This document shows positions 45,143 through 52,191 of a DNA stretch of 64,000 nucleotides, piece by piece (positions within the stretch are counted from its first letter, which is position 1; each line of letters opens with the position of its first letter). The stretch comes from Mojavia pulchra JT2-VF2. Its GTDB lineage: Bacteria; Cyanobacteriota; Cyanobacteriia; Cyanobacteriales; Nostocaceae. Where the stretch lies: positions 62,001 to 126,000 of the forward strand of contig JAHHHN010000004.1 in assembly GCA_019359325.1 (NCBI GenBank), read 5' to 3'. The notes beneath the pieces were generated by a model. It did not search any database. It had not been told where the DNA came from and saw nothing but the letters and a program-made list of their open reading frames with translations. The position numbers were made by a program, and so were the translations under genes.

Positions 45143-45409
45143 GTGAAGGCAGAAGTTGCTTCAGACTGCGCGGAACACGGAAACGTGAAGGCAGAAGTTG
45201 CTACAGACTGCGCGGAACACGGAAACGTGAAGACGGAAGTTGCTACAGGGAAGGCAGAAGTTGCTACAGACTGCGCGGAACACGGAAATGTGAAGACGGA
45301 AGCTGCTACAGGGAAGACAGAAGTTGCTACAGACTGCGCGGAACACGGAAACGTGAAGACGGAAGCTGTTACAGGGAAGGCAGAAGTTGGTACAAGGAAG
45401 ACAAAATAG
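45143..45409 (+). repeat. 21-bp-modular minisatellite, open reading frame on + strand
   Basis: Tandem units of 42 and 63 bases are assembled from 21-base modules (GTGAAGGCAGAAGTTGCTAC followed by a CAG- or GACTGCGCGGAACACGG-type module). Because every module is a multiple of three, an 88-codon frame starting with GTG stays open, with seven-residue periodicity (KAEVATDCAEHGNV). The minus strand is also partly open. There is no clear ribosome-binding site. A strong terminator follows at 45432. Whether it is translated, is an RNA, or is inert cannot be settled from sequence. Confidence 0.7.
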
Positions 45410-47095: not shown

Positions 47096-47220
47096 CGTGT
47101 AAAAGTATAGCAGTGTTCGCTCTGCCATAAATTTTGTAGTATGGGCATTGTCTAGCTAACAATGTTGATATTTTTATAAATTAAACAATTTAACAGATTT
47201 GCTTTTGGGGCTTGGGAAAG

Positions 47221-48570
47221 ATGGTTAAAATAGTTACCCGTAAATTTATAGGCGAACAAAATGTTTATGACATTGGGGTTGAGCGTGACCATAATTTTGT
47301 CATCAAAAATGGTTTAGTAGCTTCCAATTGCTTCAATAAATCTCATTCAACCGCCTATGGGTATGTAACTTATCAAACAGCATATTTAAAAGCTAATTAT
47401 CCATTAGAGTATATGGCGGCACTGTTGACGGCTAACAGTGGCGATACAGACAAGGTGCAGAAATATATCTCCACCTGTATGAGTATGAATATTCAAATAG
47501 AGCCGCCAGATATTAATCGCTCTGGTGTGGATTTTACACCAGTGGCAGGAAAAATTTTGTTTGGATTTTCGGCAGTTCGCAATGTCGGACAGAATGCGAT
47601 CGCCTGTATTTTGTCAGCCAGAGAAGAAGGTGGGGAGTTTAAATCTCTAGGGGATTTTTGCGATCGTGTAGATTTGCGTGCTGTTAACCGCAGAACTTTA
47701 GAGTCACTAATCTCTTGTGGAGCTTTTGACAAAATTCAACCCAACCGTCACCAATTAATCCAAGACCTACCATTAGTATACGATTGGGCACAATCCCGCG
47801 CCAAAGATCGAGCTAGCGGACAGGGAAGTATCTTTGATTTGTTAGGGGGATTTTCTACTACTAGTAATAAACCTGTAAATAATGCTTTTGAAATCGCTCC
47901 CAAAGCTCAAGCTGTTTCCGATTTTCCACCACAAGAAAAATTGCGGATGGAAAAAGAACTCTTAGGCTTTTATGTATCAGACCATCCCCTCAAGTCTCTT
48001 AAACAATCATCTTCAGTTCTAGCGCCTATTAACCTTTCGCAGCTTGGCGAACAAAGGGAAGACACAATGCTTTGTGCGGTTGTCATGCTCAATGGTGTGA
48101 AAAAGGTGATCACCAAAAAAGGCGATCCAATGGCGATTTTACAAATAGAAGATTTAACTTCACAATCAGAAGCAGTGGTCTTTCCCAAAAATTACGAACG
48201 TATTAGTTCTTTACTCCAAGTTGATGCTAGGTTGATTATTTGGGGTAAAGTAGACCGACGAGACGAGCAAACTCAATTGATTGTTGAAGATGCAGAACTA
48301 GTTGATACCGTAAAACTAGTAATGGTAGAACTAACTCCCCAACAAGCAGTTACTATTGAAGAACGCGATCGCCTCAGAACGATTTTAAAAGAACAATCAG
48401 GGGACAAAGAAAAAGCAAAGATACCTGTGATTGGCATTGTACAGGCTGGTAATTCTCGTCAACTCGTCCGTTTTGGTAGGCAATTTTGGGTGCAAGATTC
48501 TCTAACTACTGTGATAGCTCTTCAAAATGCCAGATTTCCTGCTCATATAAAACCGCTTACTAGTAGTTGA
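47221..48570 (+). CDS. dnaE: DnaE C-terminal half with split intein C-fragment
   Basis: The first 36 residues (start MVKIVTRKFIGEQNVYDIGV, ending NGLVASN) are the IntC part of the cyanobacterial DnaE split intein; Cys-Phe-Asn follows as the C-extein junction at 47329. In the cell this part joins the DnaE-N/IntN protein made from a distant gene and trans-splices to give the whole alpha subunit of DNA polymerase III. The extein half carries an HHH region (CDRVDLRAVNRRTLESLISC) and an OB-fold (LCAVVMLNGVKKVITKKGDP). I place the start at ATG 47221, preceded by GGGAAAG, rather than the TTG at 47212. Confidence 0.97.
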   Translation: MVKIVTRKFIGEQNVYDIGVERDHNFVIKNGLVASNCFNKSHSTAYGYVTYQTAYLKANYPLEYMAALLTANSGDTDKVQKYISTCMSMNIQIEPPDINRSGVDFTPVAGKILFGFSAVRNVGQNAIACILSAREEGGEFKSLGDFCDRVDLRAVNRRTLESLISCGAFDKIQPNRHQLIQDLPLVYDWAQSRAKDRASGQGSIFDLLGGFSTTSNKPVNNAFEIAPKAQAVSDFPPQEKLRMEKELLGFYVSDHPLKSLKQSSSVLAPINLSQLGEQREDTMLCAVVMLNGVKKVITKKGDPMAILQIEDLTSQSEAVVFPKNYERISSLLQVDARLIIWGKVDRRDEQTQLIVEDAELVDTVKLVMVELTPQQAVTIEERDRLRTILKEQSGDKEKAKIPVIGIVQAGNSRQLVRFGRQFWVQDSLTTVIALQNARFPAHIKPLTSS

Positions 48571-48816
48571 AGCTAAAAGATAAAAAATTTACCACTACTA
48601 AAGTTTCGTTTAAAGACGTTTTTTTATCGTCATACTTAAAATTGCTGAAGTAGCTTGACATAGAATTTACTCCTACGTCAACAGTATATAGCCGTAGCTA
48701 AATGGCTATATAGACGTTTATTTGGTTACTTTTGCGGATGATTACTTCCCTGACTAAATGGTATCTTTTTATGCCATGGCGTTTCAGCCATAACCAGGGG
48801 AAGGAGTAAGGACTTG

Positions 48817-49359
48817 ATGATTGTCAATGAGCTACATAAATTTGTTTCATATTGTAAAAGAATTCAACCCCAAACGCAGGAAGATATCAAAAAGTTTTTT
48901 GAGGGAGTGATTGCTTTTCCCTACGATAAAGAACTTCTATTACAAGCTTATTTATTTTTAAATATTCAAAAATTCTTTCCCTCATGCACTGAATTACTAC
49001 TATTTGAAAAGTCTCCGATTGCAGATTATACAGATTTGGGAAAATGTGATTTCCTTTTTCTTACATTACAAGGTAATTTGTTTTTAATTGAAACTAAATT
49101 TATTGATACAGAAGCAACAGGAGCCACAGAAAGAAAACGAAGAAATAAGCACAGAAACAAAGTTTTTGAACAAGTTATTACATTAAAAAGCCGATTTAGT
49201 GAATATTGGAGTATCAGAAATGAGCAATTAGAATGTGGAGTATTTACTACAGATCCAGAACTAGATTGGCGGGGAAATGGCGTGAATGTGATTACTAAAT
49301 CAGTAACTATAGATAATCTTGAGCAATGGCGAAGAAACTATCAAATAAATAAGCTATAA
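48817..49359 (+). CDS. PD-(D/E)XK-like hypothetical protein
   Basis: This 180-residue protein carries GKCDFLFLTLQGNLFLIETK, in which Asp and a downstream E-x-K have the spacing of a restriction-type nuclease core. A basic ERKRRNKHRNKVFEQVITL helix follows. It may be a DNA or RNA nuclease of a REase-like family. No methylase or toxin partner is adjacent. The frame offers TTG at 48814 directly before ATG 48817; GGGGAAGGAG lies 13 bases upstream. Confidence 0.6.
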   Translation: MIVNELHKFVSYCKRIQPQTQEDIKKFFEGVIAFPYDKELLLQAYLFLNIQKFFPSCTELLLFEKSPIADYTDLGKCDFLFLTLQGNLFLIETKFIDTEATGATERKRRNKHRNKVFEQVITLKSRFSEYWSIRNEQLECGVFTTDPELDWRGNGVNVITKSVTIDNLEQWRRNYQINKL

Positions 49360-49494
49360 AAAAATTCCAAAAAATCCTATCATGGCAGTTTAATACTATT
49401 TTGCTCCAATATCGCCATAAATAGGCAGCAAGCAAAAATAATATGTATCTCGGATTTAGGGAATTAGTACGAGATGAAGTAACATAAGAGCAAA

Positions 49495-49625
49495 ATATAG
49501 CAATCCGATTTGATTTCTGAATCACTCGTAGAGGTAAGGGACTGGGGATTGGGGACTGGGGGCTGGGAAGAAGGAATAAAGGTGTACTGAATTTTGTTCA
49601 AAAATCAAATATGAGTCCTATATAA
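49495..49625. repeat. 131-bp direct repeat, left copy
   Basis: The sequence starts ATATAGCAATCCGATTTG and ends GAGTCCTATATAA. It matches the right copy at 50486-50616 over 131 bases with one difference (GGGGGCTG versus GGGGACTG) inside its STRR-like core. Both copies have the same orientation and bracket the Nif11-type gene. Confidence 0.9.
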
Positions 49626-49798
49626 TTAATTTGAGTTTTAATAAATAAAAATATTAATAATTTTTATTTGCTGGCTACTAAACAAAATTTTAGTTTCAGG
49701 TATTGATCAAATACAACTTTTATCCTCATCAATAAATTTTTACAACACAAGTTGATAGCTTTTTGGTACAACGTATAAGCCCTATATTTATTGACTAT
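49626..49798. other. AT-rich spacer downstream of Nif11 gene
   Basis: The spacer between the left direct-repeat copy and the hairpin at 49799 is very AT-rich and has no gene. Confidence 0.35.
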
Positions 49799-49828
49799 CC
49801 TGACTCAGATCGTCATGTCTGAGTCAGG
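49799..49828 (-). terminator. Hairpin downstream of Nif11-type gene
   Basis: An 11-bp perfect stem CCTGACTCAGA/TCTGAGTCAGG with an 8-base loop lies about 105 bases past the Nif11 gene stop. There is no T-run on the minus strand, so it is a candidate 3'-end structure only. Confidence 0.45.
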
Positions 49829-49932
49829 TAAATGTAGGATTAATAAAAAACTATTTGCTTCAAGCTAGGGATACTCCAAGTGGAAGACTCACTACGTTAG
49901 CCTTAATTTTGGGTATTTACCTGAACACACTA

Positions 49933-50166
49933 TTATCTAGGATTAATGTGACGTCTAGGCCCCCACCCTGGATTGACAATTGCTGCCAAATCTTCTTCAG
50001 ACAATTTGCTGATTTCAGACTCTAGCTCTTGGATAGTGAAGTCATAACCACGCTCTTTAGCAATCTTCATGAATGTTTCTGAGTCAGCTGTTGCTTTGAG
50101 TCTTTCCTTAAGCGCTTGATCTTGTTTAACGGCTTTAAAAAGTTGAGCAGCATTTTGCTGTGACAT
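49933..50166 (-). CDS. Nif11-type leader peptide (RiPP precursor-like)
   Basis: This 77-residue protein has the Nif11 domain: MSQQNAAQLFKAVKQDQALK, then ETFMKIAKERGYDFTIQELE and the segment LSEEDLAAIVNPG. The last 10 residues (WGPRRHINPR) follow the PG and could be a very short tail or core. Nif11 leaders usually guide modification of cyanobacterial RiPP precursors, but there is no Cys, Ser or Thr in this tail, and no maturase or transporter gene is near. AGGAGATGG is a good ribosome-binding site. It could be a non-precursor member of the family. Confidence 0.85.
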   Translation of the reverse strand: MSQQNAAQLFKAVKQDQALKERLKATADSETFMKIAKERGYDFTIQELESEISKLSEEDLAAIVNPGWGPRRHINPR

Positions 50167-50485
50167 GATAGTCCATCTCCTGTTTTAAATATCAGGTTTG
50201 AAGGTATTATTTTGACTTATGTAGTTTCGCCAAATCGAGTAGTGGTCTTTTAACTTGTGAAATACATTTTGGCTAAGTCTTCGCATACTATGCCGAAGAC
50301 CATAGCTAGAAATGTGATGTCAATAAAAACGCTGTAATGATAAAATCACTAACCTCTAGAATCAGGCTAATGATTAAATTTAGTGCAGTATGAAATCATA
50401 TCCCAGAGATACGTATAGATGTATCCATCAAACGGCTGAGTTTACGGATGCGATTAAGAGTAGCAAGGTGTTGAGCAACGTCTAT
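50167..50485. other. Region upstream of Nif11 gene
   Basis: About 320 bases that must include the Nif11 gene promoter. No gene is recognised. The right direct-repeat copy begins at 50486. Confidence 0.4.
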
Positions 50486-50616
50486 ATATAGCAATCCGAT
50501 TTGATTTCTGAATCACTCGTAGAGGTAAGGGACTGGGGATTGGGGACTGGGGACTGGGAAGAAGGAATAAAGGTGTACTGAATTTTGTTCAAAAATCAAA
50601 TATGAGTCCTATATAA
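50486..50616. repeat. 131-bp direct repeat, right copy
   Basis: This copy is near-identical to 49495-49625. The distance between copies, start to start, is 991 bases. See the left copy for the single difference. Confidence 0.9.
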
Positions 50617-50968
50617 CTTACGATGCGATTGCACTAGCACTGCACAAACATGAGTACGGCTGATGCTGACTCAATCACTTTTTCTCGCAAGTGCTAATCA
50701 ACAAAACTTAAAGTTATAAAGATACAACTACGGCACACCTCTTAAACTGTAAAAGCTATGCTGATTAAAGTGGTAGTCAGTGCTTCTTCCCTAGATTTGC
50801 TAGTGCCATACGCCATTGCAGCCTGTACAAACTTTCCCTAGTCCACAGCAGTGGAAATGTTACTTCTCAAAATGCAAAGGCGAACCTGCCCTAAGAGTTG
50901 CACTTAGGTAAACAAGATAGTGCAATACAAGGGACGATCAATCAGCGCATAAAAGAGGTAAAGAAAAA
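50617..50968. other. Intergenic region before DUF6464 gene
   Basis: About 350 bases without a supported gene or repeat array. The ribosome-binding-like AGAGG lies 14 bases before the GTG at 50969. Confidence 0.35.
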
Positions 50969-51295
50969 GTGTTAAGAACTTTTTTGGTGATCGTCATTGG
51001 TTTCTTGCCATCTCTATTTTCCTTGTGGGTAATCCGTAAAAATTATTTACGGACACGCTTAAGGATGAGGCAAGCAGCGATGAACTTTTCTGTAGTAAGA
51101 AGACCGCAAAACATCAGACAATTAGAGGGCGATCGCTACTATTTAGAAGGGGTAGGTTACCTCGTTGGCGACATCAGCTGCAAATTTAATGCTCGCTCCG
51201 GCTATATCCGCTGTGCTGTCAATCCTAATGGCCCCTGTCAGGGATGCCGTTACTATGAACCAAGGGAATTGGCTGACAGTGAACATAAAATTTAA
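50969..51295 (+). CDS. DUF6464 membrane-anchored protein
   Basis: The GTG start is followed by one N-terminal membrane helix (TFLVIVIGFLPSLFSLWVIR) and a basic stretch. The C-terminal half has ARSGYIRCAVNPNGPCQGCR-YYE, the cysteine pattern of DUF6464, a small cyanobacterial family. The three or four Cys may bind a metal. A HIP1 site lies in the coding part. Role unknown. Confidence 0.75.
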   Translation: MLRTFLVIVIGFLPSLFSLWVIRKNYLRTRLRMRQAAMNFSVVRRPQNIRQLEGDRYYLEGVGYLVGDISCKFNARSGYIRCAVNPNGPCQGCRYYEPRELADSEHKI

Positions 51296-51399
51296 GATTC
51301 TTCAAAGCTCTAGATTTTTCCGTAATCTTTATAGCGACATTACTGCCAAGTGATGTATTTGTTGCTAACAACCAAGTGCCAGCAAATTTTATAAAAGAG

Positions 51400-51507
51400 A
51401 TGCGATCGCGTATGTTTGAAAATCAAGAAAAGTTAATGCAAAATATTCTAGCTGCTAACGTTAAACAACATTATCAAATCATAGAAAAACACAAAGGTAA
51501 AATATAA
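51400..51507 (+). CDS. Possible small protein or gene remnant
   Basis: A 35-codon frame (MRSRMFENQEKLMQNILAAN ...) is preceded in the same frame by LLPSDVFVANNQVPANFIKE, which looks protein-like but has no start codon. It may be the 3' end of a lost gene. No family is recognised. Confidence 0.25.
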   Translation: MRSRMFENQEKLMQNILAANVKQHYQIIEKHKGKI

Positions 51508-51753
51508 ATAATCTTTGACATTTAGTAAGGAGCATAATTTGTAATTTACTTGCCAATAACAACTTTGCAAAAACAAATTTCAAATTAAAATATTACTATT
51601 GTTAAGTAAGCCGACACAATAAAATCAAGCTGTGTAAAGAAAGATAAACAAGACTCAAATCCTTTTTCCCCCTGCTCCTTGCCCCCTGCCTGATCACAAC
51701 GATAATTCTTTACACCGACCTACTCATATCTGCCGAACTGTTGTATAAATTCG

Positions 51754-52191
51754 ATGACTATCTACTTTTATACTACTCGTGAACAATATGGTTGTTTTTC
51801 TAACTTTTCGCCTCATGGCTTTGAGCTAGATGGATTATATTGGTATACAAGCGAACACTATTTTCAAGCACAAAAGTTTATTAATACTTTCCATTTAGAA
51901 CAAATCCGTTTAGCAAGAACTCCTAAGGATGCTGCGAAAATGGGGCGAGAAAGAACCCGTCCTCTGCGTCCAGATTGGGAGCAAGTAAAAGACGAGATTA
52001 TGCGAAAAGCGGTATTACGCAAATTTGAAATCCATAGAGATATTAGGGAAATTTTGCTTTCCACAGACAATGAAGAAATTGTTGAAAACTCTCCCATCGA
52101 TAGTTACTGGGGTTGTGGATCTGATGGAAGTGGTAAAAATATGTTGGGAATAATTTTAATGGAAGTACGAGAAATACTGCGCCATGCCTAA
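51754..52191 (+). CDS. NADAR-family (YbiA-like) N-glycosidase
   Basis: The family signature is present: FYTTREQYGCFSNFSPHGFE, then LYWYTSEHYFQAQKF (catalytic Glu region), ARTPKDAAKMGRERTRPLRP and the late SYWGCGSDGSGKNMLGIILM. NADAR proteins split N-glycosidic bonds in damaged riboflavin intermediates or ADP-ribosyl adducts; some reverse DNA ADP-ribosylation by DarT-like toxins. No such toxin is adjacent. Its 145 residues are typical. Confidence 0.88.
   Translation: MTIYFYTTREQYGCFSNFSPHGFELDGLYWYTSEHYFQAQKFINTFHLEQIRLARTPKDAAKMGRERTRPLRPDWEQVKDEIMRKAVLRKFEIHRDIREILLSTDNEEIVENSPIDSYWGCGSDGSGKNMLGIILMEVREILRHA

Follow-up and report, generated by a model that had tools for sequence, protein, structure and literature searches.

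The near-identical direct repeats on either side of a Nif11-domain gene in the window, by which we mean the whole 64-kb stretch of DNA analysed, are best read as two copies of a probably IS630-derived MITE, and the second of them (MITE 2) lies on the seam at which a DUF4112-Nif11 segment meets the old locus of another gene, ORFx. As the best explanation of the whole, we consider it quite probable that the MITEs form an IS630-type family and that the seam arose through a MITE with loss of ORFx. A suspected Nif11-specific switch hereby becomes a general mobile-element family, one place shows a MITE on a gene-replacement seam, and whether MITEs drive gene-order change in Nostocales becomes testable copy by copy.

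The Repeat Pair and a Dispersed MITE Family

Sequence comparison reproduced the two same-orientation 131-bp copies described in the earlier note (49495–49625 and 50486–50616), which lie 991 bp apart on the same strand and have a single mismatch, G at 49562 and A at 50553, within a heptamer array. The identity ends exactly at both edges of each copy and the flanks are unrelated; the 131-bp match is made up of a 123-bp MITE, two TAs and four chance bases (Table 1).

Table 1. Features of the Nif11 region, with positions in the window
Feature	Position	Strand	Basis or remark
REase-like left neighbour, conserved	48814..49359	+	PF22558 below cut-off
MITE copy 1	49498..49620	+	123 bp, TAGCAATCC...GAGTCCTA; TA at 49496-49497 and 49621-49622
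GGGACTG-type heptamer array in MITE copy 1	49538..49567	+	
Stable hairpin	49799..49828	-	~100 bp downstream of Nif11, before MITE 1
Stand-alone Nif11-domain gene, 77 aa	49933..50166	-	PF07862, TIGR03798
Conserved stretch upstream of Nif11	50167..50239	-	nhmmer profile of 10 orthologue upstream regions
DUF4112 gene, decayed 5' part	50260..50485	-	blastn to 7 relatives' loci and alignment
MITE copy 2	50489..50611	+	123 bp; TA at 50487-50488 and 50612-50613; on the seam of DUF4112 remnant and ORFx tail
Ancestral right flank	50624..51042	+	last 14 ORFx bases, spacer, DUF6464 upstream region
DUF6464 right neighbour, conserved	50969..51295	+	

A search of the same genome (8,192,881 bases in 85 contigs) gave 42 matches, of which 41 are complete or almost complete copies and one is a piece of 36 bases; the best 40 of 304 candidates were scored, so that the copy number, at least 41, is a lower bound. 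Because the genome holds at least 41 copies, the repeats are not a chance match, and the presence of the repeat in many unrelated places, which the earlier note had named as an outcome that would count against its reading, is largely what the search found. Identity to the query among the 41 listed copies is 97–100% in 34, 89–95% in three and 72–78% in four, and the best explanation is that the MITE recently multiplied in this genome.

The element proper, TAGCAATCCGATTTGATTTCTGAA...TTCAAAAATCAAATATGAGTCCTA, has a TA on each side, and its terminal inverted repeats have arms of 27–28 nt that are 81–82% complementary. When the copies are aligned in register, the left junction reads TATA in 40 of 41 and the right junction CTATA in 36 of 41; TA stands at both junctions in most copies, and no pair of filled and empty sites proving a TA target-site duplication was found. 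Short (123 bp), transposase-free and dispersed over at least 41 places, the element has in these respects the properties of a MITE. Insertion, one of the origins that the earlier note had considered, therefore holds in the sense that the repeats are a mobile-element family, with its many places, inverted ends, TA flanks and IS630 relatives with like ends. The heptamer array varies: among 37 copies at least 89% identical, two are short by 7 bp and a third by 14 bp, and matched lengths of 131, 124 and 117 were seen across the variants. A G-quadruplex-type motif was found in 36 of the 41 copies when each was scanned together with the 60 bp on either side.

After in-script removal of the MITE, 36 of 38 copies (the window pair and the copy L045 were left out) had no ORF of at least 100 aa across the site, and MITE insertion is therefore mostly intergenic. 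An RNA element was considered and rejected, as an Rfam search of 48400–51800 gave no match at the gathering score and the fold of the MITE is no better than that of shuffled sequences on the plus strand (z 0.47) and slightly better on the minus strand (z -1.89). Promoter-like sites number 4 against 5.8 expected, and terminator-like sites 3 against 1.1 expected.

Two close MITE pairs occur among the 41 copies (P ~0.016 under a uniform model and 0.006 under a crude intergenic one, with a limit of 1 kb that was set after the data were seen). The second pair, on the same strand at 177767–178133 of contig C19 (L019), is 238 bp apart, and its right flank has homologues in five relatives (G003, G004, G005, G015 and G018) that lie away from the left-flank homologues. 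As the flanks of this pair are non-collinear, gene-order breaks near MITEs may be frequent without involvement of the MITE.

These data bear on two origins that the earlier note had raised for the pair. A local segmental duplication could have left two repeats in direct orientation, but what the two copies share stops where the element does, save for a few chance bases, and the element belongs to a family that is spread over the genome and has inverted ends of its own; we rejected this origin, including the recent duplication of the segment named in the earlier note, as scarcely credible. Hardly less improbable is a device for excising or amplifying Nif11, to which the same orientation, 99% identity and ~1-kb spacing of the copies would be suited: 39 of the 41 listed copies lie elsewhere, another close pair exists in the genome, and a search of the genome with the Nif11 protein at E 0.001 returned one match, itself, so that a special tie to Nif11 is unsupported. 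Among ten relatives whose Nif11 loci were read, nine showed no pair of MITE-like ends around the gene; in the tenth, G003, the orthologue too is enclosed by IS630-type MITE-like ends, though these differ in sequence (L139, ~915–1014 and 1570–1745), one of which stops a few bases past the Nif11 stop codon. We infer that the bracket around Nif11 is a by-product and no such device. Two direct repeats could, like any such pair, permit rare deletion of the segment via ordinary homologous recombination.

IS630-Type Elements as the Likely Movers

The genome has 13 DDE_3 (IS630-type) places, and the only one with TATAGCAATCC ends, on contig C58, is a 1,123-bp element with two transposase ORFs whose ends agree with the left end of the MITE at 19 of 26 bases. 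An IS630 of this genome was accordingly rejected as the parent with the best-matching ends, and no IS630 with such ends was found in the draft genome. The C58 transposase was matched in 35 of 60 genomes, this one included. When 30 IS630 loci were read, ten, all of them in relatives, had two ends that each agreed with a MITE end in at least 22 of 26 bases, and no TATAG pair was found in five. The IS630 elements with matching ends are ~1.14–1.17 kb long; L254, for example, is a 1,139-bp element with 24/26 agreement at both ends and two ORFs. Similarity to the MITE extends 41–44 bases inward at one end in several IS630 elements. In G003, eight matches to the C58 transposase with equal score suggest recent activity of IS630. 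Inspection by eye of 20 stretches bearing single or paired ends (L063–L082) revealed no autonomous element. Judged from sequence, the MITE is best read as IS630-derived, with an IS630 transposase as its likely mover; acting in trans, the transposase would have carried MITEs into mostly intergenic TA sites.

Distribution of the MITE

The MITE was matched in 41 of the 60 genomes searched, which comprise this genome and none other of its genus: in 34 of 36 of the same family (this genome included) and in 7 of 24 from other families of the order. Copy numbers in the relatives are lower bounds, the best 14 candidates per genome having been scored. Listed copies in G033 and G006 (L280 and L281) are 96–98% identical to the window MITE, and the identity of the REase region to that of the window is 80% in G033 and 75% in G006; the simplest reading of these values suggests recent passage of the MITE between genera. 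Eleven plasmid records have a MITE match (Nostoc 8, Calothrix 2, Anabaena 1). In G035, a MITE 75–76% identical to that of the window lies ~70 bp past the REase gene (L114:1879–2008), near the position of MITE 1 and not at it.

A MITE on a Gene-Replacement Seam

We compared 100 loci of relatives (20 + 80), all picked by a match to the REase-like gene. The REase-like gene and DUF6464 occur together on one strand in 30 of them, on 28 distinct contigs; neither Nif11 nor DUF4112 lies between the two genes in any of these linked loci, nor was either found in the stretch examined at any of the 100. The DUF4112-Nif11 segment sits where 18 of the 30 linked relatives have ORFx, which encodes a ~136-aa protein with no match in Pfam or NCBIfam. 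ORFx is absent from the other 12, mostly with a short gap, and is encoded in 21 of 104 loci searched overall. It had no match in the genome of the window, an empty search that by itself is weak evidence.

An nhmmer profile of the ORFx end and its downstream sequence, built from 19 loci, matches the ancestral right flank of Table 1 over its full length with an E-value of 4.4e-74. In the model, the match starts at position 27 and the stop codon of ORFx ends at 40; thus, ~14 ORFx bases remain, starting 10 bp to the right of MITE 2 and its TA. On the other side, of the seven relatives' loci aligned, five show DUF4112 homology as far as 50486, where MITE 2 has its left edge, and the others as far as 50495 and 50472; the place of the DUF4112 start codon abuts MITE 2 and reads ATA here. 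MITE 2 is therefore the mark of the seam between the DUF4112-Nif11 segment and the old ORFx locus. A role of recombination in shaping the locus, which the earlier note had envisaged as excision or amplification, is supported in this other form.

The DUF4112 piece is decayed (61% amino acid identity over 54 residues, one stop), and another DUF4112 copy, on contig C12, has 90% identity to the DUF4112 protein of a relative. The earlier statement that the repeats flank only the Nif11 gene is right as to the gene and has to be widened to this decayed 5' piece, which is also inside. In the relative G026, DUF4112 and Nif11 have the same order and orientation as in the window, and therefore both probably arrived together.

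For the left seam, both flanks of MITE 1 were compared with relatives, and neither gave a match better than expected by chance. An ORFx piece to the left of MITE 1 was considered and rejected, as pairwise shuffle tests on 15 targets were unconvincing (a single target reached the best value, 2 of 200) and a profile search found no match there. Joined outer flanks, as expected of an empty site, were absent from the intervals compared in five linked relatives and from those of the 15 targets. Farther to the left, the window holds at 47212–48570 the C-terminal part of DnaE after an intein C-terminal stretch, probably split, with a Pfam intein match below cut-off; split DnaE inteins are common in cyanobacteria. 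At 45143–45409 lies an ORF of near-repeats like KTEVATGKAEVATDCAEHGNV, repeat DNA that may or may not be coding.

Origin of the Seam

The seam would come from homologous recombination between dispersed MITEs or from a deletion next to an inserted MITE, and ORFx would have been lost as it formed. We infer the link between MITE and seam, and regard these two routes as its likeliest cause. The right end is compatible with either route and with composite transposition; recombination and deletion are the more economical, since ORFx sequence would be expected to the left of MITE 1 after a clean composite insertion. Against a seam driven by a MITE, gene order changes often in the compared genomes, and the 12 of 30 linked loci without ORFx indicate that loss or absence of this gene does not need a MITE. 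As to a reciprocal recombinant, neither ORFx nor the 108-aa neighbour gene of G026 had a match in the genome, an empty answer that shows little. The proteins of eight relatives, compared with loci of this genome, revealed DUF4112 copies and, at L016:11–208 on contig C18, a homologue (47% amino acid identity, E 4e-14) of the 77-aa gene that neighbours Nif11 in G026. This homologue, for which no Pfam match was found, is ~290 bp from a MITE with its 5' end toward it; as an exchange partner it was rejected, its orientation being opposite to the prediction of a simple exchange and its identity only 47%.

Three other accounts of the seam have to be weighed against MITE recombination or MITE-adjacent deletion. 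In a composite cassette, the outer MITE ends would have acted jointly and carried the MITE-Nif11-MITE segment as one unit into the ORFx locus. Two complete same-orientation MITEs do bracket the segment, which is foreign to the locus in 30 of 30 linked relatives; one outer end, the right, is at the seam, and Nif11 orthologues stand beside different genes in most of ten relatives, as judged by eye from translations. We nevertheless hold such a transposition to be unlikely: the ORFx upstream profile has no match left of MITE 1, so that an extra deletion is required, a flank as short as TA does not reveal whether the outer ends were paired, and a second copy of the Nif11 gene was not seen in the genome. 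Somewhat less probable still are two independent late insertions, by which the segment would have replaced ORFx otherwise and the MITEs landed later, one of them at the seam by chance. The MITEs are numerous and mostly intergenic, gene-order breaks are common in the compared genomes, ORFx is missing from a good part of the linked loci, and both window copies are near-identical to those of the recent burst. However, the unassigned DNA amounts to only ~10 bp on the ORFx-tail side of MITE 2 and to nothing on the side of DUF4112, and by our own estimate such a landing is about one in a hundred in a 1.3-kb gap.

To an exchange of MITE-bounded cassettes, in which MITEs alongside ORFx and at its end would have recombined with MITEs around a DUF4112-Nif11 segment elsewhere and swapped genes at one chromosomal slot, we give about the same small chance as to the late insertions. 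If it were true, dispersed IS630 MITEs would be portable recombination sites that move stand-alone Nif11 genes between genera.

The Nif11 Gene and Its Product

The Nif11 gene is real, its product scoring above cut-off with both PF07862 (62.3 bits, cut-off 23.8) and TIGR03798 (49.9 bits, cut-off 32.3). Two further statements of the earlier note are borne out: the tail, VNPGWGPRRHINPR, is without Cys, Ser or Thr, and maturase neighbours are lacking, RiPP maturase or exporter families having been found in none of the ten gene models scanned between 43656 and 56266 (~6 kb on each side, shorter ORFs left out).

Ten orthologues (loci L133, L135, L137, L139, L141, L143, L144 and L146–L148) were aligned with the window protein. 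Mean identity over the 11 proteins is 0.726 in residues 1–63 and 0.804 in residues 64–77, where V64, N65, P66, G67, R71, H73, I74, P76 and R77 are invariant and the tail follows the pattern VNPG[WV][GA]xRxHIxPR. For precursors related to Nif11, the motif given by Haft et al. (2010; PMC2887384) is ELSDEELEAVAGG; at this place the window protein reads KLSEEDLAAIVNPG. It shares with Nif11-type RiPP precursors (N11P, TIGR03798) a Nif11 leader domain above the model cut-off, and differs from them in having NPG in place of the GG site of the family and, as far as the available text of PMC2887384 describes the precursors, a tail that is conserved instead of hypervariable and contains no Cys, Ser or Thr. 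A GG site followed by a modifiable variable core, as in a RiPP precursor, was not found in the window protein. From these sequence features, the orthologue group appears better seen as a stand-alone small protein, unlike a RiPP precursor. The group is also a warning against calling a protein a natural-product precursor from its Nif11 domain alone, the tail of the orthologues being conserved and without the residues usually modified.

The stretch directly upstream of the gene (Table 1) is conserved in the orthologues, and Nif11 therefore keeps its own upstream region. As read by eye, its neighbours vary in most of the ten relatives, with one neighbour shared by G015 and G035 and another by G026 and G004. 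The hairpin listed in Table 1 has a z of -4.40 in the RNA fold of 49770–49850 and is absent from the terminator-scan list.

Comparison with Known Systems

The window MITE shares with IS630 insertion sequences the TATAG(C/G)A... ends, the TA flanks and some subterminal sequence. It differs from them in its inner GGGACTG-type array, while the insertion sequences carry a transposase in two ORFs and the exact autonomous parent is absent from the draft-genome finds. A literature search for the short repeat returned no paper, and among works on IS630-type MITEs in cyanobacteria no title about the window MITE was found. A MITE has been described from cyanobacteria under the name of Nezha (Zhou, Tran and Xu, 2008, as cited in PMC10969869 and PMC3733652); known here from these citations alone, it resembles the window element in being a cyanobacterial MITE. 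For Anabaena sp. 90, 147 MITEs are reported (PMC3542288); 132 lie between genes, and they bear no evident resemblance to the ends of the IS elements of that genome. A tandem array inside a MITE has a parallel in BrickBuilt of Porphyromonas gingivalis, a MITE with an internal minisatellite whose unit, in the accessible description (PMC4596501), is 23 nt compared with 7 nt in the window MITE; the two are likened by description only.

Mobile segments bounded by MITEs are also known, namely TIME-COMPs with Tn3-type MITEs, as outlined in the accessible portion of PMC13367494, and MITE-flanked integrons, as outlined in that of PMC10969869. The window arrangement resembles both, within what these portions describe, in that two MITE copies stand around a foreign gene; those systems are, however, Tn3-type or integron cases, whereas in the window the right outer end lies at the seam and the left end is without a match.
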